Notes under the pieces: generated by a model
Database searches by the model: none
What the model was told of the DNA's origin: nothing
The model's input: the letters and a program-made list of their open reading frames with translations, nothing else
Position numbers and translations under genes: made by a program
In this document: one piece after another, positions 20,729 to 60,595 of the stretch
Numbering within the stretch: the first letter of the stretch is position 1
How the letters are laid out: the number at the start of each line of letters is the position of its first letter
Assembly: GCF_000003605.2 (NCBI RefSeq)
Contig: NW_003140832.1
Span: forward strand, 1-63,339
DNA length: 63,339 nt
Direction: 5' to 3'
Origin: Saccoglossus kowalevskii
Lineage: Eukaryota; Hemichordata; Enteropneusta; Harrimaniidae

Positions 20729-23700
20729 TCACATAAAAAAGAAGGATGCCAGACCGAACATAAACAACATCAACACTGTTTGGATGACGTATGCACTCGT
20801 GGCTGCAGACGACTCTGGATCTGTAAGTAAAATGAGTAATGTTCAAAAATTACAAACTGAAAACTAACGTCAACACATTTTTTGTTTGAAGGGGGGGGGG
20901 TCGAAAAGGGCGTTTGGTTGATTTTTTTTACATGTCATAAATATGTGCGGTATTTTGGATTGTTGTATGATCCAAGATAAATGGTCGACCACAGCCATTT
21001 TATCTCATCGTGCATATATTGAGCTCAAGAATATGCTAAATAGTTTATTAATGGACTGATATTTAATGAACAATTTGCCGACTGTTTTGAGTTCATTTCG
21101 AGTATAATAGAAATTAAATCCGTTTTTGTGGTTGGAATGTCATGATTGGCATAGCATCAAAAAGAACGTGTCGACAGCTGCCGAAAATTTTAATAAACGC
21201 AGTATTCTTGACCGCGGAAAACTTGATATAGTATAATCTCTCATCACAATCTCACGAGTTCTTCGAGAAAAAACAAACAAAACAAGATTACTACTGCGCT
21301 TACCCGAGCAAACAGCCATTTCCGAGATACAATTGGTAACCGCAATGGTACTTTTTGCGAGAAAGGTCAGCTTGGAATCGGTCAGCATGACAGTGGAATT
21401 GTCACAATCAGAGTGATAGCATTGTCTCATCACTCCTCGTTTATCATCTAGAGAAAACAATTATTGATTGAAACACACACCACTGATTATTTCATAATTT
21501 TGTCATGAAATTTTAAAAACCTGTATATGCAATGGGAAAGTATGAATTACTAGTGCAGAATTGGATAACATTTTGTTTGCTGTTCAGTATTCTCCAAGTT
21601 AACAATTTCGCACAAATATATATCACTTTCAAGCGAATTGAGAGTGGTAATGGACACATTTTGCAATTATGATTACACGAAGTCATCCACTGCCACCCGA
21701 TCCATGTACTGCATATTAATATTTACTGAATAACATGAGACGGAGAAGGAATGATTACCTGTATCTGACAGATAGATGGCGCTGTACGATGGGTCATTGG
21801 TCCAAAAGTATTTGTGGTCGCTGTCCATAAGACGTGGATAAGCGTTCATTTGGTCTTCACTTGGGGCACCTGTTAAACATGAAAGAGGAAACGGATCTTG
21901 GATGTAAATCTGGCAGTTCAATTAGCTAGCTATATAGGTTACCTGGTTGTTATGAATATAGACTGGGCAGTTAGTAGTGACCGATGCAAACTAAAACACG
22001 CCTGCGATATGCCCCTTAAATTGCGCCCTCTTACGCTTCTGTGGCGTCGGAATTACATAAGTAGGTGAAGGTAATTTACAGTCGTATGCATAGAGACAAT
22101 ACAAAGCACGAACAGAAATTGCCCTTTATAGAATAGTGGTCTTTATATGACCTTTCATTAATCGATTCCTGGATACAAATATGACATGATTTCTCAGTTA
22201 AAATTGCAATTTGTTTCTCTTGATTAAATTTCAGATTGAAGTAAACCCAAAATGGGGGTCACTGGTAACATAAGACAGGTAGTATTTATAAACAAGTGAC
22301 TTTTACATGTAAAACTGCGTTGGGACTGCGCAAAGGTAGTCGCTATCAGCAGGCGAACGCTAACACAGGTTTGACTGAGTTAAAAACGAGCGTGTGCCTA
22401 TGTAGTGGTTCATCGTTTGGAAAATAGTACTAGTAAATCTCTCTTATTAACACCAGACTACTGGTAGCCCTCGTTCACACTTTTACGTCACGGAGGCACA
22501 TTGTCGCCAGATGCCGCGAGGTATAGGAGAGATGTATTTAAGTTGGGCGACTAATTCAATGACATAGCGTATTCAGTAAGACGACGCCCCCAACGAATTA
22601 TTTCGTTAATTCGTTTTTAATATACACACACCGCCTCCTTGTAAATATTTCGCGGGCACTGTACTTGATTTAAAAGTACAACATTCGGGATTATGAACTC
22701 ATAAAAAAATAGCGTTCCGCTATGCATCGGTGATAATAATAAAAATGTAGGTCAAATTATATACGTCATTCGTATCATACTGCGTAATTAATTCTTGCAT
22801 GAACGAAGCCACAATTAACTACAACACTAAGTATCTATGATTTCTCGGGTTTCGGAATAGTTTGTTGTCATTAAGCGTAAACGTTTCCCTGTATATCGAC
22901 CATGTCCGTATCACACAATTTGACACTCATTTATACTAACCTCAGCGCCCATTTGAATTAAGTAATGGGAGTGGAAATTTGAAACATTTTATTTGAAGCT
23001 TTGTTGCATTTGATGAACTAATTACAGCAAGGCCATTGTGTTCTCTATCCGAAGAGTTGGGTTACAATATATCAAAGCAGGCAGTGTTACTGTTTCCTTG
23101 CAAATGATGGAGATACCTACTCACCTTCAATGTCAAGTTCAATACTCTTGATCTTGTATTCAGGTTTGGATAAATCATTCCAAGCTTTACGAAACGCCGC
23201 CATCAATTTAGAATCAGATTTGCGACCCACTCCGAACAAGAAGTCACCTTTCGAATCGGCGTCTCTGATCTCGGCATTGAAGGAAGAGAACTCGTCCTTG
23301 ATATGATTAAGAAAAAAATGTTGTTTGAGATTTGCGCTAAAAAGTCCGACCTTGGAGAGCCTTGAAACTGTCAATGTCAGGCTGGGAAATCTGTGGTTAA
23401 AGCGGTCGTCACCTGCGCATGCACGGGAATTGAGTCCCACGCGACAATAACAACACACGCTAAAACGCAAAGGCTTATTGGTAGACGCTTGCTTGTAAAC
23501 AATGACACGCTATGGCCATCTGACGCATGCGCAGGTGACGACTCCCCCACTTTAAAGTTGCATTCTGGGATCAAAATGACTTATAAAATATATAGCTATG
23601 AACTTATACTTATCAGTTAATTATCAAACAAACAATCGAAATCATATTTCCAAGACGCCAATAAAGCAAAATGTGAATCATCTTAGAGTGTAATTAATTA

Positions 23701-26700
23701 AGGGCATGGTCAAGGTGCATCGCACGCCCAAAGTTCGCGCGACAGTTACCGCTCTTAAACGTGATTCAAAGAGTTTTCAGAGAGCTTTATTGGGACTGTT
23801 ATGTGATATTATTGATGGTCTGATTTTGCTCGCATTATTGTGAGAGGGATCTACTGCCTACATTACTCGGAACAGAAGCGAATCTTCGAGAATCTACACC
23901 GTGTTAGAACACTATTCAACAGTCTTAGCAAATAAAATTTGAACAAACAACCAAATAGGAAGCCGAAACGATAGTCAAAATAATTCAGAATAACCCATAT
24001 GTAATTATATAGTGTCAAGACAGCTCAACGAATACTCTCAGAGTGTAAGGACAGTGGCAGTGGTCACTTAAAAAAAAACTTTTCCAGTACTTCGACATAG
24101 ATAACACGTTTATATGCCGCGGGGCCACTAACCCAAATTCGTTGATGTTTTGATCCACTAGTAGCCAGAAAATGACGAAGACGAAATACCTCGACTAAGC
24201 TGTTCCATACAATACGCTGTTTAACGCATATTAATATTAGTTGAAATAAAATTAAATCGAATCTGGGTCGATTCGACAATACGCCATTATATTACTCACA
24301 TTGTCGAGGAAGATTTCCTGTGATTGATTTTTTGTGTCATAGTTCATGATAGTATCTAAAATAATAATTCCTTTGACCTTTGACCCTGTCGATTCCAGTT
24401 GTTCCTTCAACCAAACTTCGACGAAGTTCTTACTACCACACAGACCACTCGGACAGGCTGATGTGGGTTCTATAAAAACAAAACAAGAGATGTTATTCTG
24501 ATTATATAGAAAATAATAGTGACAGAAAGATGGTCCACAGAATTAAATTTTCCGTAATATATGACGATTTGTGTAATTTCAAACTACTGACGTATTCACC
24601 CCCATGGGCGTCATTTCTATGGGTGGACCCGAACCATTAGTCCAGATCAGGGGTAGGTAGGTTAGAAATTCTGCGTTTTTTTATTTTATATTTTCATTCC
24701 TACAACGATTATTTTCTTTTTCATCAGACAACACATACACATAATGCTAATTTTCCCGGCAAATCCTAATTAATCGCCTAATTAAAACCTCTCAGTCTGC
24801 CATGTACTCGTTGGTCAAAGTCGCCAACTTATGAGACCGAGATCTCGCACATGCTTGACGCGACGAACGCCGCCCTTAAAGTCTTATTTAAAATATTGGG
24901 TGTAATATGAACACACATGCATGCCCGACTGAAATATAGTCTGAAGAATATATAGAAAACCGCAATTTATTTTGACTGGCTGTTATGGTAAACGTGTACT
25001 CCACATAGAGTGTTAAACGACGATAAACGAATGTTTCAGCAAATATTTAAAAACTAATCTATAAACAGTTTACAAATTTGAGTAATTAAAATCCCCTTGT
25101 AATTTAAAATTATTTTAATGCAATTCTGGATTCCGGCCAGAATTCTGCTTTTTAGGGTTTGCCATTTTCCCAGCAATGTACTGTAAAACATGTCTTTTTT
25201 TAGCTAGCATGTTATTTTAGCTATTTTAGATAATCTGTAATTTCGCTATTTCAAGATGCAGCTAATTTAACAGAAAGTATATTCTCACAGGGAGATTCTG
25301 TTAATCCATGCCAAGAGTCAAATCCGCTAAAATTGCATGCATCTATGTTTCAACGTGTTCTACAGTAGTTTGTTGTCATCCTTAAAAAGTTATTTTTTTC
25401 TTTCAAATGTTCTCACGCGGACAAATCCTTCTCCAAAAAAAAAACATGACTGTCCACTCTCACCTTCTTTCTCCTTCATGTCAAAAGCAGCAAATATGAC
25501 AGTGTTTTCAAACGTACAGGACATGGCTTTCAGTTGCCTCAAAGCTTCCAACATGGCGGACAGGCCGGAACCATTGTTGTCGACCCCAGGGGTTGTTGGC
25601 GTCGTGTCAAAGTGGGCTCCCACTATCAGGTACTCGTCGTCTTCTGTGTCAGCCAGTTTTCCTGGAAGGATCCCTACCACGTTGTACCCCATCGTCTAGT
25701 GGTAATAAATGACATTGATATAACCAGAGTTACTGTACTGCGTGTGTACACATTCAGCTATTATGATACATTTTTTAACGTAACCAATTTAAATTAATTG
25801 TTCATAGCTTTCTCAAAATATGCAGATGGTTATTTGTTTGAAGTATTTAAATCGCAATGACGCGCGTGTCATAATTAGAGACGGTATTAATTGTTTAAAG
25901 CGGGAGGATCGTTACCTGCGCACGCGCAGGTAATGAGTCCCAAACGATGATAACAACACATGCTAAAAACGCAAAGGCTCGTGGGTAGACGCTTGTTTGT
26001 AAACAATGACCCGGTATGACCATCTGGCATATGCCCAGAGGACGACTCCCCCGCTTTAACACGAACATACAGTATATATAGCCACCCATGCCCACCCCTA
26101 TTTTTTGGCAATTTTCTATGTTCAGGACCCTAGGCGCTTACCCGGATAAATTCGGTATTTTTCAGTTACTGCCAAAGGCTAGATGGACTCGTCATATTAG
26201 TTGCATTATATTCTTGAACAGTTTCACTTATTGTATTTTACGATTGTTTCCTTTTCCTGAAATTGAATTGTTTATTGCAAATGTATGAATAACTCAGGCC
26301 ATACAGTTCGTTGTCCGTGTAACCATTTTTTTGTCGCCTGATTTGATTGGTGCGGTTTCTCATGAGTGTAAAATGGAGGTGTGAAATCAACCGCGCCCCC
26401 AACGACATTCTTTGTTTTAGTTATGTAGCGTTTGTCAGTTAGAATACCTTCAAGTCACCAATCTACATATTGTCGTCGCTAGAGGTCGCAAATATATTAA
26501 AGGCGCAGACTGTTTCCAATTCATCAAACTCTCATCTCAGCTATACATTTTATTTGTTCACACTAGTAATTCTTTTACACTGACCTGTGGATCAGAAGTG
26601 GCGAAAGACACCATATTAACGTCAAGTTCATTGTCTTCAAATGTACTTTTAATGAAGTTCCTGGCTGCTTCGTGATATGCCATGTTACCAGCGTGATTGC

Positions 26701-28173
26701 GATTTTTGCTGAACTTGTTCTGTATCATTGTACGCAGATTGGACGCAGTTTTGACGTAGTCCTCGTCAGCTGACTGACAGTGTGACGCCAATAACAGTAC
26801 CACAACTGCAACAAACAACAATATTTTAAGAGGATGCCTTTCCTTCAAGTTCACTAAATGTCGCATTTCACCTGACGTGAGTTCATATTTAGAATCGTTG
26901 AAGGGAGATTAGAGCCTAGTCGAATGTAATGTGTATTTGTTACGAGTATATGTGTCTTATGCTAATTTATGTTTTTGCAAACAATTGGTGTTGTGTAACG
27001 CGTTGTGCGATGTGACGTGCTATGATGTGATGCGATGTTATGTGATGCGATGATGTGTGTAGTGGTGTGATACGATGCACTGTAGCCGGACTGGTCTTAT
27101 GTTATTGTTGGGGGCTTGTCTTCGTTTTGCCACGAGCTACTGAGTGTCACGCTGTCTTACATTGTCATGGGGTTGATCACAGTGGGGGATATAGAAATTC
27201 GAGCAATTATGATGTTGCCAGTGTGACTGAAATAACTATCGTGAGAATTGCATCCTGAGAAGCAATTAAATAAAACCTGGAACAGTAATCTCCTGTTCAA
27301 TGGAGTAATCTTTCTCTTCCGTAAGAGTACTCCGGTCAGATGTCAGTAATTGCAAAGTTCGAACAAAAGAGATGTGGGTTAAGTACGATTACCTCATAAT
27401 TTGCAAAGCTTCCTTCGTAAGTGATGCCATTGTACTTGGCGCTCATTATCCTCCAATCAATGCAAATTGCTTAACTAGTTATGCTTTACATGGATATACA
27501 GTGGGAGAGGGGGGGGGGTGGTGCAACCCTTTAGGCGAGTACTGACATTTCATGAATACCACAAGTGACATGCGGAGATATTTAGGTTTGATGTTAGTGC
27601 TGGTGGCATTAGGCGATTCCACTGAATGCGCCACGGAAAGACAAGGACATTGTGAAATTATGGAATTCTAAAAGACATACTTGTTTCGTAAGTTTCAGAT
27701 ATTGACAAATATTAAAATTTGTATTGGTTGTGCAGTTGTCCATATCATTTCATGTGATTATTATCACGGAACGGAGTATCGTAAGAACCGGAATTCTTCA
27801 AATACGTCATAAAGATTGACCATTTTTTACAGAATTGCAGCGAATGTACATGTTGAATGTTCATCATCAATCCGTTTCAATGAAATAACAGAGTGAATGG
27901 ATTGTGCAATACAAGAAGCTATTTCTCAACAATCCCTATGACGCCCTTTCGAAGAGATTTGCATCAACGCATAACAGTTTTTTATCACAGTGCTACGTGT
28001 TACGATTCAATTGTTTTTTCAAAAGGTGTGCACTAATATTTTCAAAAGAAACTATTTCGAATATCGTGGCTGTGATAGGAAAGACATAAATGCGAAATGA
28101 CATTAGAGTAATATCAAAGCTCGGAGAAGGTGAACTTACCTGCTGTTCGGTAGATACAAAATTTCGAAGCCAT
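20729..28173 (-). CDS. Secreted M28-like metallopeptidase homologue, gene B (8 exons, 413 aa)
   Basis: Manual exons on the minus strand: 28173-28140, 26871-26585, 25695-25464, 24469-24300, 23296-23125, 21869-21759, 21447-21304, 20820-20729 (TGA). All introns are GT-AG; phases 1,0,1,0,1,1,1. A hydrophobic segment at about residues 28-41 is a signal peptide or anchor. The pro-region spans about 47-107. The M28 fold spans about 108-375, with NVVGILPG, GAHFD (135-137), DNNGSG (146-151), the expected Glu-Glu site reading Lys181-Glu182, LDTIMNYD (Asp223), and SDHKYFW (His317). Cysteine pairs C190/C195 and C345/C350 probably form disulfides. The last exon gives small residues then a hydrophobic tail (395-413), like a GPI signal. 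Asn147 replaces the usual bridging Asp and Lys181 the catalytic Glu, so activity is doubtful. If the first exon is wrong, translation would start at ATG 26866 (400 aa). Confidence 0.85.
23401..23551 (-). mobile_element. MITE family M2, copy 1, in a gene B intron
   Basis: TTAA flanks at 23397-23400 and 23552-23555. Ends are AGCGGTCGTCACCTGCGCATG and its complement with GGTGACGACTCCCCC. It lies about 100 bases upstream of the 3' splice site of exon 5 (23296), inside the intron, so it sits close to the likely branch-point region. Confidence 0.85.
24805..24875 (-). mobile_element. MITE family M1 partial copy in a gene B intron
   Basis: On the minus strand it starts after TTAA with GGGCGGCGTTCGTCGCGTC and continues GCATGTGCGAGATCTCGGTCTCAT, then GGCGACTTTGACC. 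These are the landmarks of the copy at 19469-19690. Only one end is recognisable, so it is truncated or very degraded. Confidence 0.6.
25080..25320. repeat. AT-rich inverted-repeat-like element related to 57517-57728
   Basis: Contains TACTGTAAAAC and GCTATTTTAGATAATCTGTAATTTCG-type words, like the element at 57517. The boundaries are not clear. It lies in the intron between exons 3 and 4 of gene B. Confidence 0.35.
25899..26055 (-). mobile_element. MITE family M2, copy 2, in a gene B intron
   Basis: TTAA flanks at 25895-25898 and 26056-26059. Shares AACAACACATGCTAAAAACG, GCAAAGGCTC and TAGACGCTTG with the other M2 copies. It has the same orientation as copies 1 and 3 relative to the host genes. 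Length is 157 bp. Confidence 0.85.
28140..28173 (-). CDS. Probable first coding exon of gene B
   Basis: ATG 28173 opens 11 codons plus one base before a strong donor, GCAG then GTAAGT. The acceptor upstream of exon 2 (CACGTCAG, exon from 26871) is in phase and joins in frame to the internal ATG at 26866. With it the protein is 413 aa, matching gene A at 412 aa, and both genes then share a tiny phase-1 first exon. The polypyrimidine tract of that acceptor is weak, so the internal ATG remains an alternative start. Confidence 0.5.
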
Positions 28174-29893
28174 CTTAAAGCACATTAACTCTGTACTAAG
28201 CTGAAAACCAGAATGCAACTGAATCGAGTGAGTTATTTTGTAATACGGCACTTGTCCTTAGTACATTTCGGTACCGTGTGCAAAGGCCAATCTAGGACGG
28301 TGCCGTGGGGACAAACAGCGTTATATTTTTTACTTATCCCGGTAGTGCAATTGGAAAGCACAATGCGTTGATAAATTAGGTACACAATGATACACGGAAG
28401 GTCTCACTAATCTACCGAAAAATGATATATCATTAACTTATGACTTCCCATGACAGAAAGTTGACGAGCACGCTAACGTATCTATAGCTACAAAGTGAAA
28501 CGTGACAACGGGATATGATTAACTTATAGATAATGCTAGCAACAGCGTGGAAATTTACTGCACTCGGTGGATTGACGTGTGCAGGTGTTCGGGAGAGATA
28601 ATGTCTGACCAAGGTTGTGATGAAACCTAAGATGGACTGTGAATTATGGGCATAGCTCCGATGCAGAGAATATATAGTTTACAGAACGTCCCCGAAACGC
28701 GCTGCTAACTTATTATCTTCTAATATAGTGTTAGGTCCCAATACAAGGAGACATACGCACAGAAGAATATCGAATTCTGTCTAAAATATATTACGGCGTC
28801 TTCGCTCAGTGCATTCATGTAAATAAAATGCTTTTTACACGCGTTGCATCATGCATCACGAAGACAACTCAGTGAGACGATTATGGCGTTTTAAACTTTA
28901 ACAGGCAATATTTTCTACATGATATAACATTACTATCATCGAACTGTGAAATATATTTAGATGTAGAGTTGAATTGTCTCTTGAAATGAAACGCTCATTG
29001 TAATAAGCTAATCAGTAAATGTAACAACTGCAAAACACGCAGAGCCAGATACTATAAAAAAAGTCTATAACAGTTTGTTTCGTCAAAACAGGAAATTATT
29101 AGTATAATATGTGGTCCATTTAGAAAAGGACACCATGAAACTTGAAAAGGAACATTTCCTAGCTGCTCGGTTAAACACAAAACAATGGAATTTACCGTAA
29201 TTACAATTACTTAGTAAATTAGTTCTCAAATATATAAAATAAAACTAGATATAGTCATCCAATACTATACACTCTGTTACCATATAGAACATACGTATTA
29301 AAATACGATTTTGCAAATAGAACAGTACGAGAGTGTGATGATGACCTTCCAGGGTCGCCAGTGATGATGGTTTCTTGTGTGCATTCTTTTACAAAAAAAA
29401 ATACTAATCAAATCCCACGCGATAACACTTGCAACAGATACCGATTAAAAATTTACATTCATAAGGATACCGTATTTATTTGTATATGTTTTTAATGTAT
29501 GTCGTCTTCTGTCCTGTTTATTTTGTGTAACTTATTTGTGACTAGTGGTTATTATATTGATGTCAGTCCGTGCTAGAACCCGGAATTAGGTAAATAAAAT
29601 AAATAGTTTCCTTAGTGAAATTAATAAAAAAAATAGCAAATTCAATATAATTGTGACATGCAATAATTTGCAAACTAGTTCGAAGCTCGTTGACAATACA
29701 TACACGCACAACAACCTTGTGTATGTTCATCACGTGACTACAGCGTGTAAAGTACTTCAAAACCAAACATTTACAAATCACCAAGTCATGGTTTGTACGT
29801 AGTAACACGAGTTGCTACGATAAACAAAATGGCGAACACGATGACATAGTTCGACAAACATATAGTACATGAAATCGAAATCTATTGGTCCTA

Positions 29894-29922
29894 CCACCGT
29901 CCCTGGTGTTGAGGGACGGTGG
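29894..29922. repeat. Perfect hairpin, 11-bp arms and 7-base loop
   Basis: CCACCGTCCCT, loop GGTGTTG, AGGGACGGTGG. The outer GGTCCTACC is directly repeated on both sides (from about 29888 and about 29921). It may be a remnant of an inverted-repeat element or a structured RNA stem. No function can be assigned. Confidence 0.6.
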
Positions 29923-30828: not shown

Positions 30829-30925
30829 TTTATTTATTTATTTATTTATTTAATTAATTAATTAATTAATTAATTAATTAATTAATTAATTAATTAATTA
30901 ATTAATTTTATTAATTAAATTAATC
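30829..30925. repeat. ATTT then TTAA tetranucleotide microsatellite
   Basis: A run of ATTT units changes directly into a run of about 15 TTAA/AATT units. The second part is perfectly self-complementary and could extrude as a cruciform. It is also a dense cluster of TTAA tetramers, the target of the M1 and M2 elements, yet none is inserted here. Confidence 0.9.
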
Positions 30926-37953: not shown

Positions 37954-37959
37954 TTAATC

Positions 37960-41021: not shown

Positions 41022-44000
41022 TCAGAAAGCAATCGAAAGTAGCACCATCGTTACCATAGTAACATAACTGACACGTTGGTAGTTTGCGTCGTCACCTGCT
41101 TCAACTTGTCCTGCCTGGACGACAAGTTCAATATCTTCATCTGAAATATCAATGAATATACAGAATATATTAATTAACGTTAAACTTGTCAATCTTTTCG
41201 AACAAGGTTGCTTTTAAGTTATTTTCTTAACATGAACACACACGTGTATATTTATTTATCGGTCTCCTAGGGGGTGGAGCTACGTCACAAAACGTTCTAT
41301 GTTGCTAAGACGTGCACCAATCTGCCATGTATTTCTAGGGGCTCTGCGAAACCTTCTGTGGAACGCCTGTCGAAAGGCGTGGGAAAACAGCTAAAGTCAA
41401 GGAAACAGCATAAACTAAACTTTGTCGTAATCCTGAGCAACCAAATTTATACATGTTGCACTTGTAAGAGTTATCTTGTTGAACTGTTCAGGAGAGTCCC
41501 TCAACAACTATCCCAAAGTACAGTTTTCTGAGAATTATCGGCCTATGTGTGATGGTTCCCAGGCGTTGAAAATACCCGGATGTCCGCCCGAGGATAATAG
41601 GGCAAGTTGTTGTGTGGGGTAAATGATATAAGCAGTGAAAAACTGTGTACTAAAATCGCCATGCAGCATACATTCCAATTTCATGTAAACAAACAATGTA
41701 ATTTACACGCGCCATATATTAGTACACTACATGGTACCCGTATCCAACACGACGTGTTGTAACTCTGTTAAATTAAAAACATTCATACCTTGTTTGCATG
41801 TTGTGGGATCAGTTTCAGAGAAGTCGTGGAGATAATTTTTGAGACTGTGGACGGTTTTGGCAAGGAATTGTAGTTTCTCATCGGTGATGGTGTGTACATC
41901 ATCGCACATCATTCGATAACATTCATTCATTATGCCCCTTGACTGGCCTGGAAATAAACACATATCGAAAGTATATATAGGGAAACATTCTAACACTATA
42001 TTGGCCAATCACCGTCTAGTTACGACGAAATGATACAAGCAGTTGTGCCTGACATATGGGATATATTTGCCTTCATCATAGTTGCTTGAACTCAATGTGT
42101 CACGGCGAAGAGCGAGGGCGCTGTCTTACTGCTGTCCACTTATATGAATATTCTAGATCATTACATATGTAAATGCTCTACTTACGAGTATCAGTAAAAT
42201 AAACTGCCTTCATTCCTTCCTCGTTCCAAAAGAAGAAATTACTGTTCAGCATGTATTCCTGATACAAGGTCTGTTCTATCTGGTTCGGGATAGCTGAAAA
42301 CAAATATACATGTATATATCAACGTAGTACAAATACGAATCTTAGCGATGTGCATACTGCCCTCTAGTGTTCACATTTGACTACACTTATGCGTTTGTTT
42401 CCGTCGCTAGAGGTCTGTATTTCAAACAGTGTCTTTTTATAACTGTAAGTTGTATTATGTTGCTCAAATAAGTCCCGTACTGAATATAGAATGAAGATTA
42501 GAGGTGGCGGCACGAATGTTTTTGGGGCGGGTGAGATCTGCTCATCATTTCTTTGGGATCGAATTCAATTGTAAAAATGAACAACTAAGTCGTTTGAATA
42601 AAACAACTTAGTGGCCATCAATAATGTTTTTACCAGAAACAAAAACAAAAAAACACGTTAAAATCAACTTATGAATGTAACCTCTGAATACGGTTAGATC
42701 ACTCATCAAAAAATATTTTAAAAAACTTTGGAATAAAAAGAACTGTGTGGTGAAGCTTCACTCAGAATTTTTTTTAATGTTTCTAGTAATTTCAATATTC
42801 TCATTTTGTTATCTAGTTATATATTGTCCATCATCAAATTGATATTTCAAACGTATACAAATGTGTTTTTTTTGTGATTAGTTTCGTGGTATAAATTGAT
42901 CTTGATGTTTTCAGCATGACTCATCGTGTCGATCCGATGAAATGTTGCCAATTAGTCATGAAGGTCAATTGTCAAATAGTATATTCTGTCATGATTTCAA
43001 TGCGAACACGTGGCATTATGACGGTGCTACTATAAACAGTAAGATACGAAATTCCCGCACAAAGCGTAGGTGGACAATCACAGACGACAGACAAATATGG
43101 CTGCATGTAGACGTATTTTACATTTACGTCGAGTAAAACTATGATACTACTCACCATCGATTGGTAACTCAAGTTTGTGAATAACAAACTCAGGGTTAGG
43201 GAGGCTCTTCCAATGCTCTGCTATTTTTGTCGTGACGTCAGATTCCAATCGTCTTCCAATCATTCCCAGGAAAACTCCTCTATTTTGATTGGCCTCAACT
43301 TCAGTCGCTGCGCTTGGAAATGTCTGTCAAAAATAAACACACATGGGAATATTTATGGACAATCTCCACGGCTGATTCGCCTCTTGGGAACATAAATGAG
43401 GTCGTGGCAACTCCGATTTCTGGACGAATTTTCGTCAGCACTATTTTCATACACTGAATACACATAGCGCCACCACGCGATGGATATAGATTATAGATTA
43501 ATTGGCTCATCAATGTGTTTTCATTATAGCTCACAAAAAGGGATGCAAAATATGGGCACCATCGAACTACATTTTGCCCCCAAAATCAACTGAATATAAT
43601 CCATGACATTGCGATTTTTGAGATGGTGTTCGGGTCCCCTTGGGTTATCTCGAATTCTGATTAAAACCAGCTGATTAATATTGATCAATTCTTCAAAACG
43701 GGTTCTTATCTTGAATGGGATTTGTTCAAAAATTGCACATTGATAACAAATATTTCGTTTTTCCAGCCCGTTTATGATCGTTCGCTTGCAATAGACTTAA
43801 TAAATATACTAGGTGAATATATACCATAGTCCTTTGTTTCAGAAACTGTACATAGACGGTAAGACCTTTCGGCGTTTTAACCAGATCGAAATATTTTGGA
43901 GGGATTAATACGCATCATGAATTCTCAACTGACTATCTTATAACTGCATAACCGAATATTGAGATATGAAGAGAACTTTTAACAAAATAAGCCAAAAAAG

Positions 44001-47000
44001 CTAAAATTGTGTGCTTGGTGTTTTGTGTGACAAGCAATTCGCTGATCGTATATTTGTATTTGGCTTTAGTAAACTATAATAAAACCGTAATGTAAAATTC
44101 AAGGGAATCTACCAAGTGATCATCTGTGTTGATGGTTGCCAATCATTGTAGATTGAATGGCACGAACTGAAAGACTTGTAAACATCACACCATAGAAGGT
44201 ATTATGTACTTACCGACTTAAACTTAGTGGGAATGATCTGGGATTCCGGTGTGGTGTCGTAATTCATAATTGACTCAAGTATAAGAGCCACGTTCAATAT
44301 AGGATTACCGACTTCTTCCAAATATGGCTTCAACCAGCTGAGCATGAACGCGGAGGTACCACAAGCTATGCGACTATAACACGCACTCCGTACTGGTAAA
44401 ACAAAATTATTTTGGAATTTAGAAATACATAAAACAAAGCTCTATATTTAATAAATACAGTTTTAAAGATGCATTATGTAATTTTTAATGTTGTTGTTTG
44501 TTACTGTGTGTTGACGAATAGATTGGGGTATAAATTATTATGAACCAATCACGTCGTCTTTGCAGCACAACAGCGAAGTATTCGTTCGAAGAAACACTGA
44601 CATTACCTAATACGCATGCGCACTGACTGTGTCAGTATGTACAACAGTCACTGCACATGCGTGGTAGTGCTTTTTTATTTTTCAGCGAACGAATACTATG
44701 CAGTGCGCTGCAAATACAACATTTTTAATTCGCGATAAATCATAATTCAATTGATCATCAACATGAAATATCAAACAACAATATTAAAACATATATGTTT
44801 TCGTCTATATTGCGCCTTCAAACCATATGAATTAGACGGAAATTGGACGTAGTATATTTAGATTCTACAAGATGTTTGCTCTCATGAATGAATAAATGAA
44901 TGAATGAAATTAAAATCATGACGAAATTTTGAAAAATTGTCCTACGACCAGAAAATACAATTGGTGAGGAAATTATGAACAAAGGGACAGAGCGTTTGCC
45001 GAAAGGTCGATTTCACATGAAATTCCATGTACGCTCCTGAAAAGGTCGGACGACAGTCTGAGATCTAAGCTTACCACTTGAACGCGTTATTTACGTTACA
45101 ATGACCCCATAATGAACGGGGAGAAAACAAATTATCGCCGAAAACTTTAGCTTTCGTTACTGGAAAATTATACTTTGCCAATTTACGTTGCTGATAGAAA
45201 TAAATAGCTACATGTATAAGCACTTATGTTTAGTATATTCAAATAAATGTTAGGTTACCTTTGTCAGCTGACTCTTTCACGTCCATGTCGATGGCAGCAA
45301 ATACGGTGGTATATTTATGGTTACATTCCTGTTTTGTAAGCTCCTTGGCTATCTCCAACATAGCAGCTACACCGGAACCATTGTCGTCCACACCGGAAGT
45401 ATGTCGGTAAGTGTCGTAGTGCGCCAACACGAGTGTGATCTTATCATCAGGCGTTCCAGACATGTCGCCCTCCAGGACTCCAATCACGTTGCTCCCCTCA
45501 ATCTATAATGACGTAATATGCAACAAAGTGGGCCAATATGTAACAATGCATCCTGGTAGTTTCTGTTTCGGATAACGAATAGTTTATTTTTAACTATCCA
45601 CGTTTCAGTGGAACAAGTTCACTACTATCGAGAATGAAACAATTGTTACAAATGTAACTTTCACTGACGTCCAATAGTTGACGACAACATTATTATTGTT
45701 AGTGCAAGCAAGTATCAAGGAATAGACGCTGCCAGTATGTGTGGCATTCAGGAACCATACGTCATATGTGTTACCAAAGACAATGCTTGTTATTGTCATT
45801 ATTATTGCAGCCTGTTTTCATGATCGAAGATTAGATTGTACGGGGAATAGAAACGAAATTGAGTTCAAAAATAGTTTGCTTTTGAATAATTGTACAAACG
45901 TCCGTCCACCGTTTGCATTGTAGACATTGCGGCCGCGGACGTGTCGGCCCGTTTTTTTCAAAGACAAAGGTGTTTGAAGTGTTGTTTTTTTCTCGTACTA
46001 TGAATGTCGGAAGTTTCGCACGTTAGAAGAACGGTATATTTATATTTATTTATTTATTTACTAGATCTGTTAGAAGCATATATTAACAAGGCTCTCCTTA
46101 TTCCCCGGAGTTATTCGATGTTTTCTAAAAAATGCCCGCTGCTGAAAAGTTCCCCATTGCAAAAAGCCGCGACCGACACGTCTTGGGCCGAAACATCCGC
46201 CCACCGTTTGTGCCTTCTACAAAGAATAGTCCTGGTAATTTTCTTAACACCATATAAAATCATAACGTTTATGTAATTCCTTTCATAACTGTGATTATTT
46301 TTTTTTCATTGAAACAAGAGAGCTACATTCCCGTATAATAAAGTTTGAATTTGCATGAGAGAGTACAGTCCACTGCTAATATATTGTTGTCCAAATTAAA
46401 CTAATCAAAATAGCCAAATATTTTGATCAATAGTAAGCGCTTTTTCCTGAGCGAATACAGTTAAATAACTCTGACCACACAGCAATGAAAAGATTAACAA
46501 TTTACGAAGATCGGAGACGCAGCATGACAACGCGCTGAAGTCTGGTATGCCGCCCTCTATTGGCGACAGTATAAAACTAGGCCAATCGTATTACGTATCA
46601 CCTGTCATACTCTGCATGCGATATTGGACATAAATTAAATTCGGAGTTTAAGATTGATGTTCAAACAACATTATTAATAATAAATCAGTGAAAAGTTTGT
46701 TATAGACTATAAATTGGTGATTGCAAATGACGATGTGTTGTTACTACGCAACCGTAGACCCATGGGTAATTCTTTGACGTTGTAGAATTTTCTCGGAATA
46801 TGAAAAGCGATTTTTTTAATTTCGAATTAGTGTATGTTTGTAAGTGTGTCTATTTTAAATTCTTCACTCGAGTACCATTGTAATCGACTAGTCATTGCGA
46901 GCTGAAATGCAGTGTCCACGACGCACATCATGACTATCAATTGCATCAAAACACGCCCACACAATATCACGTTTTCACTCAACAATGAAACACATCCGGA

Positions 47001-47794
47001 AATGAGTCATCGGGGCGAACTTGTACAATTTAACAGCGCTGTGTATATTAGAACCTCGAGTCAAATCTAACGCGTGTATATGAAAAATGAACGACGCTAT
47101 AATGATCGAACAATTGACGATTCTGGTTATATTTTCTATAGCATCTTTTTTTTACTCGAAATCGATTACAGCAGCTTCGGGAGTTTCCGCTTGTGCGATC
47201 GCGCTGCATCACGGGAAACCGACTTACCATGTCATGTTCTGTCGAAAATGAGTGAATGATGACCTCGAGCCCAAACAACTCGAACTGATCCTTGATAAAC
47301 TGTCTTGCATCGTCTTTGTAATCCGATAATGACTCGAGATGATGCCTTGGTTGGCTGAATTTGTCTTCAATGATATTTCTCAGATTTTCACCGGTTACGT
47401 TGAATAACGTTTCTTCTATATTGCTTGGCAGGCTGTACACCAGAACCACTGTGAGGACAATGACAATTGTGTAATTATTTAAATTAATATTTACTTAATG
47501 TGTCTACTCTATACAGTAGTGAATTTTGTCAGTGAGTTCTCGTCGTTTTTAAAATATTGGTTCATTTTGTGTATTATCATATACCTCGTACTGGTAACGC
47601 TGTGGGAAGTGCGCCCTCATACCAGGGCAATAATTTGCCGTATTAATGTTACAGCTTGTAAATATACTTATTGGTGACAATATTTCTGATAACGCTAAAT
47701 ATATGACAAATTGATTTAAATATAAACATGGATATCATTCTGAAGGTGTAGGAAACATTGGAAGAACGAGCTTGTATATCTTTCTGTTTTAAAT

Positions 47795-47861
<67 letters not shown>

Positions 47862-50800: not shown

Positions 50801-53800
50801 ACCCCGTGCTGACTCTATGCGTAGCTATCGTATTGCAGTGTTCGGTATGACATGCATATATATAACAAGAATTAGTTTACACTTAATCATCACCATATGA
50901 TAAGGTGATGAGGTTTCGAGAACCCGTGTAGAAGACTGAGAAGATCGTGTGATTAGACTATTAAAGCCGTATGCCGTAAAACAGTGATTGATTAGGTTAA
51001 TAACCGAGATTCGTACATCTGCTGAGTCAACAAATTCGAACACGTGTTGACAATGCGTCTTCACTTCCGCCGAGTCACAACGATGAGCGTCAATTAAGTG
51101 TCAAGTTACTCACACATGTACAACATTCAACCCAATATTTCAACAGCAGAGCCACGAATCTACGCCTGGTCTCTTGTAACAAATCTCTGGAATTTCACGA
51201 TTAGTAACAGTAATCTGATTCACAACAGAAACACGGCGATTAAAGCATGAGGGTCGTCACCTGCGCGTGCGCGAGAATTGAGTCTCAAGCGACGATAACA
51301 ACACACGCTAAAATCGCAAAGGCTCATGGGCAGACCTTTGTTAGTATACACCGACACGCTATGGCCGTTTGCCGCATGCGCATGTGACGACACCCCCACT
51401 TTAAGTGAACTTATTCCAGACTCATCGCCGTCATTCTCCCATCGTGTAATTTGCAAACGAACTCGCGAATAAACACAACAGGTTACACCACCTTGCTGTG
51501 CGAGTTTATCACGTGATACGGCGCGTTCGTGTTTACGAGATTTTCACGAATGTGGGCGACACTTTGTAAGAGGCTGGTATCAAAAACATACTAATACATA
51601 TGATCTTTCAAAAACTGAGTTGCACGAGATATTCTGATTTCACCCCTTGAAAAATTATGAGCCACGTCCTAGGTAAAGTGTTTCAGCAAATCTACACGTC
51701 ATCTGTATAGATCCGGCCCATCGTAAATATATTATGAATCTCGCGAGAGTACGATATAAGGTCTATATTTGTGAGTAGCGGTTTATTCCATAATAAGGAT
51801 GTTCGTAATTAGAATGAGTTAATAATCGTGATGTTGACAAAATAAAGGATATATTATGGCACTGACAGAATATTGTGTAAGTAAAATAACGCACGTTTAC
51901 TATCTGCATCGCAATCTCCAATAATATGCCATCCGTTGTTGCCGCAGTCCCAATTGACTTAGTTTGCATAAAATGTAATTTCCGTATTCCTATGACGCAT
52001 AAATCTTTTTAAATTAACAGGTATGTAATTTTATAGGGTACTAATATTGATCGAGCCTCAGACAGATACGTAATAAATGGGATTTGAAGAATATTGCTCT
52101 TTCCAGAGAAAATTGAAAACTGATAGGGTTTTATTTATTTTATTGTGATTTTATTTGTATTTTATTTGTTATTCTTCAATACTACAATAACATACTATAT
52201 ATTAAATGCATACATTAAAAATTGATTTGAATCTTTGAAGCATGGAAAGTGTTTCTTCCATTTTACCGGGTGTGGCGCACTTCACTCGACTAAGTACTAT
52301 GCAAAATTGCAACAACAAAAAAAATGGGTGAGGCGCAGGTTTGAAACTGACGCGCGTTACGAGAAGCAACATTCCTTTGTTTTCCAAGTGGTTTATGGTG
52401 TCTTCAATCGAACAGTGGACCTGGTGAACGAGCATCGTGGAATAAGTTTAATTCAATCTTTGAAATCAAATGTTCAGATCATACCCGTACGACAAATAAT
52501 TGTGTGTTAGTGATAACAATAAATCATGTCGAGTATAACTGATGATTATAAGGACATAAATGATCATTACGTAACGGTATAGTGATTATTTTTGTTTTAA
52601 ATATGGTCGCCAAAACAACGATCGTTCAAAAATATCGAACAGTGAATATGGTTTAACTGAGTGGAGCACAAGACCCCATTTGCGTGTTTGATTTAAGTCA
52701 TGCCCATCACTGGCAGGCCCATTTAACATCTGTATAACATCTTACGATGATGTATGTAAACATTGACATACAGTGAAGTAATTTACCTCGCCCTACTTAC
52801 CAAGTCTTTTGCAAATTTAGTGCTTTTCTGCCGTACATGATATAGTGGCATTTTAACCCCGGAACTCTAAACTAGGACAGTGACAAATCTAGGTCACGTT
52901 ACCCTGAGGAGAGTCCATCGCGATCAAACCACAAAAAGTGTTTTCATTCTACATAAAAGCAATCCACAATTTGTTGTGCGTTCTACGTTTGGAACTTTAT
53001 TTGCCGAATTATTACGATTTCTCAACTGTGATGGTATTCGACTCCCTCGTATCTCGAATATGACGTATTTATGGCCCCTGCATGTCACACATCCGGGTAC
53101 TTTCTAATTTCTTTTTAACACAGATAGCTCTGACAATGAAGGGAAATAACCACCAATCATGTAGATGTGTCAAGACATGTTCAATGTATGAACAAGTGTT
53201 TGATTAAAATGAAATTATGATACCAATATGAAGGCTGAATTTATAGTACTTCATTTGAATTCGAAAAATCCGGATGAGAGGTAAACTCTCATGCTGGTTT
53301 TCCCCGGTTTTCAAAAAAATAACTCACTAGAGGCAGCACTGTAATTTTTTAGACTCCGAGGGAACTCGCCAAAAGGAAGCTATTACAAAATGTGTATAAA
53401 TCGTAGGTAGTTGATGAATACCATCGTGATATTTAGGACTACGACCAAATTCATGCGTTTGGCAAGCAAAACATAACATTTATGCAGTCCAAGGGCTGAT
53501 TATTGTCTGTAATTACATTTATGAGAAAGACGACCGAATTGACACAGTTTTACAAATGCGCTGACTCTAAATCCGATCCAACCATTATTGGAGAATCGGA
53601 CACTGTAAATGTCTTGCATGGACTCAGTGCCTGCTATTTACCTAAAGGGCGGTTGTCGTCGCGCAGCGCGTGTTCGAATTGCATGTAAACAAACAATGTA
53701 TTTTACAAGAGTTACATACGTCGCTATCATGAGTCCCATATCGAACAGGACGCGGCGCGACGACTACCACATTCTACAACACATAGATGGAAAAATAAAT

Positions 53801-56800
53801 AAATGATCAAGACCAGCATTCGTTCGTTGTACAATAACACTAATCTAAATGTATGACACATAGTATCTATCTCACCAAATCTCGTTAGACTGTGATCCTC
53901 GAGTCACGTAACTATACTTTTTTTTCGAGAACATGTTTTCTCATAAGCGGTTTCTGATTGGATAATGCTATCCATTAATAACCATGACGAAACGTGTCCC
54001 AATTGCACAATGCGTACCATACAAGCCATTAAGTTGAAAGTCGGGATAGTACGCGCAGACGACAATTTGTTTTGTAATCTCACAAGTTGTGATACTGAAC
54101 TTGTGAATAAAATCTCCGGGCTAAAATTTCATCCTAGTCTTCCTAGGTGAGGGAGAAACGTACGTATGAGAACGAACCCTATTTTTACCTTGGCTACACG
54201 GCGATAAATATACGCCTTTCATTCACAACGTATGTATTACATAATTTGCTGTTGGATGATTCAATATTATCAAACCGTATACAAGACCACTCAGGCGACA
54301 GAGTCTTAGTCATCAAACACACTGTCTGGCCCGAGGCACGAACATCGTTATCTCTTCAGTTGACAAACCATTAAATTATGTTTACTGAGGTGTGTCTTGT
54401 TTTAATGGTTGATATTAATGTCATAACTACATTTGTTCAATAATATTATGGGACATTTAATCATTTAGCATCCAGGTGGAACTCGGGAATTATTATTTTT
54501 TAATGTCCAATTCTTAAAAGACTCATCATTATGAAGACAAAGAATGCCCAACTGTCTTGCTAACAATGGATTTAAATGGGTGAATGAAGTTGAATTCCCA
54601 ACATTTTATAAATTATTTGTATATCAATTACTAGTATATCGGGCTTGAACAAATGTCATGAAAAAACTAAATTCAGCTGCACGTTTATGTCAATGCTGTT
54701 CTGACATACATATAATATGCATGGGAGTGGTTATGTCTCGGTCAAAAATCGTAAACATGTGAAGTGAAGTAAAGACAAAATTAATACTTGACAATATGCA
54801 GTCGCGTTTTCACTAAAATAAGAAAATTCTTCTCTTATTCGTCGTGTCCTGTTCAGTTAAAGCGGGAAAACGCTCTCACATGGTGAATGACCCCTTCTCG
54901 GTGACTCAGACAATCAGAACATTATTACCGCTAAAATGATTAAACGCAGACGACGAAAAGAACAGATGTCCCCATGGAGGCGATACGGTTCAGCACGTGA
55001 GGTGTAAAAGGTTAGTGCAAAATTCACAGTCAGCACCAGCGAATCGTTAGAAAACTTTAAAGCGCGGGAAACAAAAAAATACTAAATATAACCGGCGTTG
55101 TTGATGCGGAACTAGTCTTGAGAATTACAAGGTGACGACTGCGATTGATGGATCATACCTTCTCGTCTCCCAGTGTATCGTGGTAAACGGGAGATTCATA
55201 TCAATTTATAGAGTGTCGAGATGTGGTATTTTATCCAAACCGCCGAAGTCGCACCATGTTGTATGTGGGTTGCCTACCACCACTGACATAACAATGCATT
55301 TAAGATGTGATTTCCCCCCATTAATAATTAACAATGCGCAGGCATTCAACCACGACACAAATCAAGTATACTAGAACATGTTATTGTTTGTGAAGAAGTA
55401 GAAGGGGAATAGAAATGCTGTGGGCAATTTTATTTATTTCCAAATGACAACTCTCCACGTTTCCCCTATATTTGTATTTTACATGGGAGCATTCGATGAA
55501 ATTTCGGTATAGATGTGAATATGGTTGCCATCGTAACAACACTTTTGGGGATGATTTTTCATTCATAACTCAAATTACTATGTAAACAGAAATTTCGGAA
55601 ATTATTTTTCATTGTAACTCATAAAAGTTATGATTGATTTTCTTCAATTGATTGATTTGGATCTGGATTTTGTTGTGAGTCGTGAACACAAAAACATGTT
55701 TACAACGAGTAATTATTGCCAAATAACTGAAAAACATCAATCATCAACTAAGCGATTAGATTTTGGAAGGAATATTGACTGCTGATTGATTGCTATGGAG
55801 ATAAACTTTTAAAAAGATTCTTCACCATTGACAGATAGGGCTGTATGATTTCTTGAGAAAACAATCATATTCAGGACTCAATTTGCTCTGAACTTACAAT
55901 GGAAATTATGAAGTATCAGAGAATGATAAATGTATAATAGGGTGAAGGGTATTAGTGAGGGTGTGTCGCTTCTACAGTTGAGGTTGACGCTCTCAGTATG
56001 CCTTCTAGTTTTATTTGTTTCTCACTAGCCGCGGGTTTTTGACACAACGAAGAGTGAACCCACGTTAGCAAACAACATGGATCATAGCCGTTAGACGATA
56101 GGGAATTGTAATACTGTATACATGATTGTGTCATATGGCGACAAAGCTGTCACGTGACTAGGTGCCGGGTGCAGTGATTCACTTGTAAAAATCACGTGCA
56201 CGATACGACGTCATGAACTTCTGCGTTCAACGTTTCAGTGCACGGTTTAAAAATTTGTTTAGACGGAATCCTGAACAGTCATTTTATTTTGACGCCTAAT
56301 ATTTCGATAATAATGGTTGTCAGAGTCTCTGGGGTACATTTCTCAGAGAATTCCCAGACATCGACGTCGGCTGCCCCAGGCACCAACAACATCCAGAAAT
56401 TGTATTCCCGGCATGCTGTGTTTACTGTGAAACTTGATGCAGCCATGCCATGTTATCATTTGTACTACAACATATCTGTAGCAATATAATAATGAAACAT
56501 AGACCAGACATGCAGAAATTTCCCTCTACAGGAAGTGCTTTCCTATTAGGGTTCAAGTTGCGCCCTCTTAGTCTACTCGTCAGTCGGTGCCATAGTTCAC
56601 TGCCACAGTGCACTAACCACGAACACAAATTGAAACGCACACTCCAAGTCGAGGCGAGGCGAGAGCAACTGTAGCTAAAGTATGTGTTGACATAGTAGGG
56701 ATTTTCGCGAGCGCATTTCTTCCGAGTTGCATTCTGAGGTGGAAATACGATATCTGTTGCAAGTTGCATTTTTGAATAATATCTCGGCAGGAAACGAAGG

Positions 56801-59800
56801 CGTGTGACTGCAAGCAGACTGTAAAGTGACGGTCATTGTCCCATAGTCCACATTTAGTTCAACTCATACTTCACTTCAATTGAACAGGACAGCGTTACTA
56901 CACAGACTAGCACAATGATTAACGGTCACGTTAGCGGAGATTGTATGACAAACTATACTAACTACCGGGACGTTTTGAGTTTCGCGCGAGATCCATGTCT
57001 TACCGTACGCACATGTCAATCCTCACCAAGAGACGTGTGCAATGTATATTTGTTATTTTGTAACGGAGATCATACAGACAGATAACAACGGAACGCTCGT
57101 AAACGGATAAACTGAAATATGTTACAGTGAAATAAACTCTGAACCCAGCGTTTTGAAATGCAATTGAGCCGCGGGTATCACAAACAGAACGGTTGACAGA
57201 TATATCGGCATTTACAAGTGGGTGTCCGTTTTTTGTGTAATAAGTGAGAGAACACGAAATGTATATGTTCCGGTTCCGGTTACAACGATTACAAATCAAA
57301 ATCAGCAGATGTTTGATTATATACTAGCCCCTGTGCTGTTCAAACTCAAATTGCTGAAAAGGATCACAAATATAGCGAGTTTCATGATGATTGCGTATTG
57401 TTATTCCACACCGCCTTTTCCGCGTGGCATAAATCTATTTTGATATACCAGTATAGTGACGTTTAGGGAAGACATTCTATCTGCATGTTTTTGTCGCCAT
57501 AAAATATAAAAACAAATACTGTAAAATGACTAATTTTCACTGGGTTTAAATTTCACTGATTTACCATTTCAGGCATATTCAGTGGGTTTTAAATTCACGG
57601 TTTCGTTATTTGGATAATGTGTTCTATGCTAAATATTACATATTCACTGTGTTTTAATTTAGCGCATTTTTCCAGTCAGCGAAATAAGCTAAATTAAAAC
57701 CCAGTGAATAATTACCCCCTTTACAGTAATCAACGTGATATAATATTATGTGTGTTATTTCATTCAAATATGTTAAATATTTTCAAAATGTATACAATTA
57801 TACTTTTTAGCTCCACACAGCAAATTTCTTATTTTATCACATTGCCTGATAAACAGCAATTTCCTAGTGAAATATGACGCACTTGTTTTCATTCCCTGTA
57901 AACAGAGAATTTTACAATCTGTAAATATTAGTAATCGCTAACAGGCCGCACCAACACAGACAGACCGGAAATTTCTTTTATTCAACTTTTTATCACATAA
58001 ATAATAGATGACATTTACGATTTCTGACAAACTTTAGTCCAAAGAACGAACAGGTCACACTAAAAAGTTCGACGGAGTTGTGGAACAAATTCACGAACAT
58101 CGTAACATATACCCGGAAGCGAGTGAAATATTCTAAGCGTGTTTCCAATCTATATAACCACTTAGCCGGCGAAGTGTGTGGCGAACACGCGATATCTCCA
58201 CAGTCAATCGATCTTTTCCGCTTAATAGTAAACGGCGCAATGACTCACAGAAACGCCAGAGTTTGAATTCAGATGGATTTCCATTATGAAGCGACAATTC
58301 CTTTTTTCTGGGTGTGAATTTCTGTAAAATGGATACTAGTATATGCACTCATTGTATCACGTTTGGTTAAGGTGAACCATACGCGAATTCGCCGTGAACA
58401 ATTCATCTGGTTACCAGCTTGTGTGTTCGATTTGCACCCGCCCCCGAAATAACTTCCATGTGTCCCCAAAGCAACATTTGATTATGAAGACCTTGAATAA
58501 TAACACCTTCAGGACAAAACAACTTTGAACTAGGACATCACATAGATCATCCAAAAGCGTTACAACAATTCCCAAACACGGCTTCAGCACGATACATGTA
58601 AACAGCTCTCATTTGTACACCGCACATGTCGTACACAGTGTATGTCAACAAATTGATGTTGACACACTTCACAAGGACACGTCGCTAAAACATACCTGCG
58701 TTGTGTGAGTGAAAGCACGTTTTATACCGGATGTGTAATTATTCCAAGTCAGGGGTTGGTGACGGGGGGGGGGGTGCATTCATTCTTATTTCGTGAATTG
58801 ATGACAATAGTGTAACCACGACACCACCTATCTACACAGAATATACGGGCATGTGTTCGCTAATTAACACCACAGTCTTGTATGTAATCGTGTTAGATAA
58901 TCAACTATTTATATTTGGAAATTCCGAGTTACAAGAACGAGGATGGTTCAATAACATGTAAAGCCATGCCATACTACACATATCTTGGAAACTTAACACT
59001 GAGTAAAAAGTGCAAGTTTATGTCAGTTTAAATATATCTCTAATGATGTAAACACAGGGTATTTAAGTACTCATTGACACTACAATGTCTACAGAACAAT
59101 TTACACCATTCTCGTGGACCGAATGTGGAAACGTCGCATTCACCGTGCCAATATTTCGATGACATTTACAGTTTGTAGTAAATTTACCGTTTGTTGTTTG
59201 TATATTATTGATAGATTTAAAAAAATATTGCTAATATTCATTGTCACGGTTATATGCGCTGAAACATGCACAAATGTCATTAACGGGGGAGTTGCCTCCT
59301 TAAAATATACCTTATAAAACAACAATTTTACGTTTTTACGACACTCTGGGCATTCAAGGACCAATTGAACAATACATCACTAATTGGCCCCACGGTAATT
59401 GCGGGGACATACGCTGCGAAGTACCCGTGGCTGTATACCGTTTAAAATGTAATCTTTCCTCCCAATTGTTAATTCAGTTAACACTGCACAAGATCACCCG
59501 CTCCCCGATGAGTCATGCGCTTGCTACGACTTCAAAAGATTGCTTTCTCACTACCCACTGTTTCAATAATAATCCGTATTTACGCGACATATTTCGCCTT
59601 AGTGTCTGCATGCTCGACTCCACCACACTCTGCTATTTGAATATAATTGCACTGGCAGTATTTTGTGTGTGGATGGTTGTAAAAACATGTTGTCTACGAT
59701 GCGATATATTGTGACCAAGAAGGTGGAATGACCTACGACCTTTTACGAAATGTGTCGTCTGACGTTTACTTGGCAGTTGTTATAAATATCCACTTTGCTC

Positions 59801-60595
59801 GGCGAACGCCATGTAAGATATGGTGTACGTTTATAAGTTGAAGTCTATTGAGACAATTTGTATATTATTATTATCATTTTCGGATTAATAATTTGCGTTC
59901 AGGATTATAAACATGCTTTGACAGCAGACAATAATTCCTTTGACCTATAGTCTCGCTGCAGTGAAAAGCAAACTGGGAGCGGTCGTGTACTCAGCGCAGT
60001 GGGTCTCACCCCATCTCCTACCACGTGATGCCCATCAGAATCAATTCACAATAGACCACGCTTGATTTCAATACTATAACATCCATGTATACAAAGATAA
60101 CGCACCAAACGCCCTGCCCTCAAATCAACAAGTCTATCTTCAATAAATCATCGCATTTCATGAGGTCATTTAAAAATAACTCCGAGAACAATTTCATCTA
60201 AACCTCATTTGAACTTGCAGCATGAAAGTGGAGACGGTGCAATATTTGTGGGAGTGGCCTCTATCGTTCATTGTCATTTCCCCGAGGTTTTACATGAAAC
60301 GAAGGGGGCTTTTTATTATCGGTCCAGTTGTCGTGGCTGTCCCGTAATTATGGATTTTCATTAGACGAGTTCTATTTTAAGGTACACGTTTATGTAAGGT
60401 ATTAATTACAGCGTAGTGTCAATACTGGGTGTCTACAATCAATACCGGAACCACGGACAGGGACATTATGGTCATGGGAATACTAGTATAGCGACGTAAC
60501 GTAGTGAGTTCTGTTCTACGTCGGGGATACATTAGCGTAATTAAAAGAAACGTACCTTGTACGAATACACTGATCAGCCCCGCAAATCGCCACAT
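41022..60595 (-). CDS. Secreted M28-like metallopeptidase homologue, gene A (8 exons, 412 aa)
   Basis: Manual exons on the minus strand: 60595-60556, 47448-47228, 45502-45259, 44392-44214, 43323-43155, 42293-42186, 41947-41789, 41140-41022 (TGA). All introns are GT-AG with phases 1,0,1,0,1,1,1, as in gene B. The signal peptide is formed across the first intron (MWRFAGLISVFVQ plus VVLVYSLPS). The pro-region spans about 23-87. The M28 fold has NVIGVLEG, AHYD (115-117), DDNGSG (126-131), Asp161-Val162 where Glu-Glu is expected, LESIMNYD (Glu208), and NSNFFFW where SDHxxFW is expected (Asn303). C173/C179 and C330/C335 match gene B. A hydrophobic C-terminal tail (about 397-412) follows AGDDAN, as in GPI signals. 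Loss of the Glu-Glu pair and the distal His argues against normal zinc catalysis. The first exon is the least certain. Confidence 0.85.
44478..44750. mobile_element. Inverted-repeat element in a gene A intron
   Basis: Left TAATTTTTAATGTTG, then TTTGCAGC and AGTATTCGTTCG. The right arm has the complements in reverse order (CGAACGAATACT, GCTGCAAA, CAACATTTTTAATTC). The loop holds GCATGCGC and its partner GCACATGCGTGG. It lies between exons 3 and 4 of gene A. It is MITE-like, with exact ends not fixed. Confidence 0.65.
47787..47863. repeat. ATTT tetranucleotide microsatellite
   Basis: About 19 perfect TTTA/ATTT units in the first intron of gene A, close to its 3' end (about 340 bases before exon 2 on the minus strand). 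Confidence 0.9.
51244..51400 (-). mobile_element. MITE family M2, copy 3, in the gene A intron
   Basis: TTAA flanks at 51240-51243 and 51401-51404. Shares GGGTCGTCACCTGCG, AACAACACACGCTAAAATCG and GCAAAGGCTCATGGG with copies 1 and 2. It is 157 bp and in the same orientation as the other two. Confidence 0.85.
53646..53772 (+). mobile_element. MITE family M1, degraded copy in the gene A intron
   Basis: Starts AGGGCGGTTGTCGTCGCGCA and ends with GCGCGACGACTACCAC. The interior has GTAAACAAACAATGTATTTTA and ATGAGTCCCATAT, matching the reverse complement of the interior of the copy at 4285-4409. The TTAA flanks are mutated (CTAA at the left). Confidence 0.75.
57517..57728. mobile_element. Inverted-repeat element with TACTGTAAA ends
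   Basis: Begins TACTGTAAA and ends TTTACAGTA. The interior holds several copies of a TTCACTGGGTTTAAATT-like word and its complement AATTAAAACCCAGTGAA. It is a non-autonomous element in the gene A intron. A relative with unclear ends lies in a gene B intron (about 25080-25320). Confidence 0.65.
60556..60595 (-). CDS. Probable first coding exon of gene A (signal peptide)
   Basis: ATG 60595 opens 13 codons, MWRFAGLISVFVQ, plus one base, then CAAG followed by GTACGT. The phase fits the acceptor before 47448 (TGTCCTCACAG). The join gives a typical signal peptide that neither exon gives alone. The intron is 13.1 kb, the longest in the window. I found no better candidate in it, but the choice was made by eye. 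Confidence 0.55.

Follow-up and report, generated by a model that had tools for sequence, protein, structure and literature searches.

Within the M28 fold, the peptidase-like domain of the transferrin receptor is a known example that lacks peptidase activity; the receptor represents another M28 branch and carries additional domains. Other enzymes and binding proteins are described in the literature. Table 1 of PMC7522609 gives Asp97, Glu132 and His247 as the Zn1 ligands of Streptomyces griseus aminopeptidase (SGAP), and His85, Asp97 and Asp160 as its Zn2 ligands. The same paper presents glutaminyl cyclases as single-zinc M28 members and a model of GPAA1 with Pro, Asp and Tyr as ligands (PMC7522609). 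PMC2647162 presents nicastrin as a protein whose substrate-binding site derives from a peptidase. In the present work we compare with these systems two M28 genes, A and B, in the genome of Saccoglossus kowalevskii, both of which have lost catalytic residues.

Results

Two spliced M28 genes in tandem

The window, that is the whole stretch of DNA that was analysed, comprises bases 1-63339 of contig C3181 (175,269 bases), in a genome of 572 Mb in 4830 contigs. As the sequence-only reading had proposed, it carries two M28 genes in tandem; both lie on the minus strand, have spliced open frames and match Peptidase_M28 (PF04389). Gene A extends from 60595 to 41022 (8 exons, 412 codons) and gene B from 26866 to 20729 (7 exons, 400 codons). 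The exon bounds were hand-picked using homology and splice signals, and GT-AG boundaries are present in 7/7 gene A introns and 6/6 gene B introns.

In gene A, the putative exon 1 (60556..60595) supplies a start codon and the signal-peptide start MWRFAGLISVFVQ, followed by the donor GTACGT. This exon of 40 bp, lying 13 kb upstream, is the least certain one, the start codon, the donor and the hydrophobic residues being its whole basis. Exon 2 (47228..47448) encodes an N-terminal part, exon 3 (45259..45502) contains His115, Asp127 and the Asp161-Val162 that stands for the lost Glu-Glu pair, and exon 4 (44214..44392) contains Glu208 together with Cys173 and Cys179. These are followed by exon 5 (43155..43323), by exon 6 (42186..42293), in which NSN replaces an SDH motif, by exon 7 (41789..41947), with CYRMMCD and Arg332, and by exon 8 (41022..41140), encoding a weakly hydrophobic C-terminal tail and the stop.

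Gene B is organised in a similar manner. Exon 1 (26585..26866) encodes a signal-peptide-like start and an N-terminal part, exon 2 (25464..25695) carries His122, Asn134 and Lys168-Glu169, exon 3 (24300..24469) carries Asp210, and exon 4 (23125..23296) has a dispersed repeat directly upstream. The SDH motif, with His304, is found in exon 5 (21759..21869), the motif CYHSDCD, with His334, in exon 6 (21304..21447), and a hydrophobic C-terminal tail with the stop in exon 7 (20729..20820).

Both products exceed the curated PF04389 cut-off of 21.3 bits, gene A with 55.8 bits (6.7e-15) and gene B with 77.8 bits (1.2e-21). They share 37% identity and five Cys, and their intron phases are the same once the extra first intron of gene A is set aside. 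A hydrophobic stretch is present at the N-terminus of both. At the C-terminus, B has a clear hydrophobic tail and A a weak one, in which one 17-residue window lies barely above threshold. These hydrophobic stretches suggest that A and B are secreted proteins, attached to the membrane through a GPI anchor or through one membrane span.

Several repeated elements are also found in the window. Copies of a dispersed repeat lie at 23366-23617, 25890-26129 and 51223-51543, the first being the one that adjoins exon 4 of gene B. At 7473-9117 two adjoining tandem arrays, of 81-base and 16-base units, are spanned by a 525-codon open frame, and the stretch 799-1142 is a direct duplicate of 3349-3731, the longer translated pieces being ~90-100% identical.

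Mapping of the catalytic positions onto SGAP

The top PDB profile match of the family is SGAP (1cp7, E 4.4e-13), and the numbering of the matched stretches recovers SGAP His85, Asp97 and His247. The Glu-Glu pair was placed via the 6hc6 alignment, the relative on contig C50, which has Asp-Leu-Glu-Glu there, and an alignment of 38 prokaryote relatives. The first Glu of this pair, Glu151 in the Vibrio/Aeromonas enzyme, acts as the general base, and the second is a Zn1 ligand. The Zn2 site includes an Asp/Glu motif, at which Glu208 of A and Asp210 of B were placed. This last column is the least certain position, as it was assigned by family alignment only and the prokaryote rows are unreliably aligned there.

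On the SGAP map, gene A presents His115 (in HYD), Asp127 (in DDNGSG), Asp161-Val162, Glu208 and Arg332, and gene B presents His122 (in HFD), Asn134, Lys168-Glu169, Asp210 and His334. The first metal His is kept in both genes, the bridging Asp is kept in A and replaced by Asn134 in B, and the Glu-Glu pair is intact in neither. Of the six catalytic positions, three are changed in A and two in B. Gene B keeps 4/5 metal ligands, with Asp210 assigned by family alignment and the bridging one altered, and has Lys168 in place of the general-base Glu. Gene A has Asp161 at the base position and has lost Zn1 (Val162, Arg332); it keeps all three Zn2 ligands (His115, Asp127 and, by family alignment, Glu208) and, judging from these residues, may therefore bind a single metal.

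The distal His needs a separate comment. The sequence-only reading had located it at Asn303 in A and at His317 in B, a residue which corresponds to our His304 (the earlier numbering of B is 13 higher throughout, so that Asn147 is Asn134, Lys181 is Lys168 and Asp223 is Asp210). Both of these residues sit in the NSN/SDH motif, which is no metal position, whereas SGAP His247 aligns with the motif Cys-Tyr-His-x-x-Cys-Asp (CYHxxCD), a motif that is also matched by the chains of keratinase KP1. The short second matches at CYHxxCD are weak alone (1 to 9 bits); stronger support comes from the column count, His being present at the CYHxxCD column in 38/38 prokaryote relatives and at the SDH column in just 17/38, so SDH/NSN was rejected as the distal-ligand site. 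It follows from the SGAP alignment that gene B has its distal His as His334 and that gene A has lost it, with Arg332 at the true distal position.

The earlier placement of the distal His was therefore wrong: the site is at CYHxxCD, and A has lost the His at a residue other than Asn303. That catalytic residues are lost in both copies is supported. The other residues then listed (HYD, DDNGSG, Asp161-Val162 and Glu208 in A; HFD, the bridging Asn, Lys-Glu and the Asp in B) were found again, as was the retention of fold motifs, Cys and open frames. The description of the losses as independent and non-overlapping does not hold: the general-base Glu is altered in both A (Asp161) and B (Lys168), so that the losses overlap at one position. 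Alternative splicing that would restore the Glu-Glu pair was also considered and was rejected by reading, the pair lying inside one continuous exon in A and in B.

Conservation among prokaryote relatives

As a control set we used all 38 bacterial and archaeal relatives returned by one scan of contig collections. In this set, whose counts are not fully independent because some members are close kin (five are Larkinella) and because one of the two scan patterns encodes part of the bridging motif (Asp or Asn allowed), the first His and the ligand Glu are each found in 38/38 relatives, and the bridging Asp in 37/38, with one gap (L070). The base Glu is likewise found in 37/38; the remaining relative, a Flavobacteriaceae M28 member (L086), carries a Lys there, as gene B does. 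Judged against these columns, the residue changes in A and B appear to be not chance.

Relatives in the same genome

The Pfam search of the genome gave at least 7 matches, and protein searches gave at least 23 (query B) and at least 22 (query A) exon-level matches, window exons included. The relative on contig C47 (303349-309890; L007, L036, L041-L043, L046) is a 337-aa core without first exon or tail, with HYD, DDNGSG, Tyr-Ala-Glu (base Glu to Ala) and a distal CHH, the remaining metal positions being kept. On contig C50 (62011-62992; L024) there is a 5' fragment of two exons with HFD, DDNGS and an intact Glu-Glu pair, after which 49997-61337 is occupied by N. Two 3' exons on contig C2976 (62085-65258; L047), near the contig end, carry SDH and CFHKKCDN, which includes the distal His; conceivably they represent the missing 3' portion of the gene on C50. 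The M28 matches on C1762 and C4068 resemble, by eye, other M28 branches.

A further copy, on contig C1183 (21126-23664; L022), contains an in-frame TGA. Inspection by eye indicates a frameshift after the TGA in the same exon, an expected first donor without GT, and an end that resembles a membrane span; the distal motifs remain. A stretch like the dispersed repeat of the window was also noted, again by eye, in an intron of this copy. In the window, on the plus strand, a third family copy is represented by a solitary remnant resembling a first exon (6337..6507), which shows 75% identity to the C1183 copy over 52 residues. No convincing further exons for this remnant were found on contig C3181, and searches of all its 175,269 bases with A, B, C47 and C1183 as queries gave nothing convincing beyond the two genes and this solo exon; the other matches were short and weak.

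A tree was built with rows for A, B, C47, C50 and C1183, the C50 row occupying 24% of the alignment columns, and with five of the 38 prokaryote relatives as outgroup. With a support of 100/99, the five family rows form one group apart from the outgroup. Within it, A pairs with B at a support of 94/95, slightly below the 95/80 mark, and their end branches measure 1.09 and 0.94, respectively, compared with 0.62 to 0.73 in the other family rows. As read from these comparisons, A and B are sister, tandem genes. Within the family the general base differs in three ways, being Asp in A, Lys in B and Ala in C47, while C50 retains Glu-Glu.

Divergence and neutral simulation

Comparison of A with B over 382 codons gave a pS of 0.836, at which silent sites are saturated, and a pN of 0.452. 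The pS values of A and C47 (0.776) and of B and C47 (0.871) are saturated too, and for this reason no dN/dS ratio is given for the three pairs. We ran a neutral simulation, designed post hoc and excluding insertions and deletions, with 4000 runs per gene starting from the present sequences and each stopped at the first stop codon, which was reached after a median of 18 (A) and 19 (B) substitutions. In this simulation at least 3 of the 6 catalytic codons of gene A were altered in 0.45% of runs, and at least 2 of 6 in gene B in 5.8%. Frames that are still open at saturated silent divergence disfavour simple decay, more for A than for B; by this measure the simulation argues against decay for A, and for B just mildly.

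Discussion

The explanation that we favour, and consider probable though well short of assured, is that A and B are membrane-held M28 pseudo-aminopeptidases that have been kept for a non-catalytic role, loss of activity, attachment, binding and selection all being inferred. In each protein an SGAP-like M28 domain would follow a signal-peptide-like start and be followed by a hydrophobic C-terminal tail, serving as a GPI anchor or as a single membrane span. Both are most likely unable to cut peptides: hydrolysis is unlikely because the general base is gone and because one metal site is broken (A) or the bridge is altered (B). Their most likely role would be at the cell surface, in the binding of peptides or of a partner protein, as proposed for the M28-like domain of nicastrin. 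Several points count against this explanation. The end branches of A and B are the longest of the five family rows, which also fits relaxed constraint, and one prokaryote relative (L086) shares the Lys of gene B at the base position. The neutral simulation is weak for B, and the broken C1183 copy indicates that decay takes place in this family.

An altered or residual catalysis, in which B would bind two metals with a bridging Asn, or A one metal at Zn2, and carry out a slow or different chemistry, appears unlikely to us. The retention of 4/5 ligands in B and of all three Zn2 ligands in A, the Asp/Glu column being assigned by family alignment, speaks for it, as do the other M28 members that function, or have been modelled, with a single zinc or with unusual ligands; yet at the general-base position B carries Lys and A carries Asp. 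Nor do the genes offer the single-zinc site of the cyclases, made of Asp, Glu and His according to PMC7522609, since it is intact in neither: A has lost two of its residues (Val162, Arg332) and B one (Asn134). We regard as quite unlikely a relaxed constraint or recent decay, whereby function would have been lost lately in both genes with the frames yet unbroken. That decay occurs in the family is indicated by the broken C1183 copy, a sister copy to which the solo exon at 6337-6507 may be added; the long end branches of A and B also agree with decay, and for B decay is compatible with the neutral simulation (5.8%). Against this, each gene carries several catalytic changes, yet its coding sequence of ~1200 bp is free of stops and frameshifts and its splice sites are intact, and Cys and non-catalytic motifs are retained.

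Errors of gene model or assembly at the active-site codons are highly improbable. Gene A exon 1 is unsupported, and no second near-identical copy of the A and B exons, which as a second haplotype would check the bases, is present among the matches listed, two points that leave some room for an artefact; the altered codons, for their part, lie within exons of uninterrupted frame with homologous neighbours, and five changed positions in two genes would need separate errors.

The reading of A and B as retained pseudo-aminopeptidases can be carried further, into a proposal that we put forward as speculative and on balance doubtful. A and B would form a tandem surface pair sharing a receptor or decoy role, in which A would be a half-site protein with the second metal site only and Arg332 at the His position of the first zinc, and B would have Lys and Asn in its active site. 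Together with C47, which has Ala, they would then show that the family has converted the pocket of a peptidase, by several routes, into one that binds peptides or partners.

Literature searches returned no paper that we recognised as describing the A and B pair. Pseudo-peptidases show a route from an enzyme fold to a binding protein, and the present family, with a Glu-Glu 5' fragment, with Asp, Lys and Ala bases and with a broken copy in one genome, offers a compact case for testing which parts of an active site are dispensable and in which sequence they may be lost.

Among known systems, SGAP (1cp7/1f2o; M28) resembles A and B in the layout of HxD, (D/N)DNGSG and CYHxxCD and in the Cys flanking the distal-His position. 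SGAP is an active two-zinc enzyme; compared with it, three of the six catalytic positions are changed in A and two in B. Both proteins also differ from SGAP in their signal-peptide-like start and in their hydrophobic tail. In nicastrin and nicalin an M28-like ectodomain is part of a membrane protein, as is predicted for A and B; the profile match to nicalin was weak (5.5e-4), and secreted bacterial aminopeptidases score far better. Glutaminyl cyclases share with A and B the fold family and have a one-metal M28 site, as may be the case in A, but the Asp/Glu/His site that they use, according to PMC7522609, is lost in A and altered in B (Asn). In conclusion, M28 relatives that lack peptidase activity form a known kind, to which A and B would add new members.
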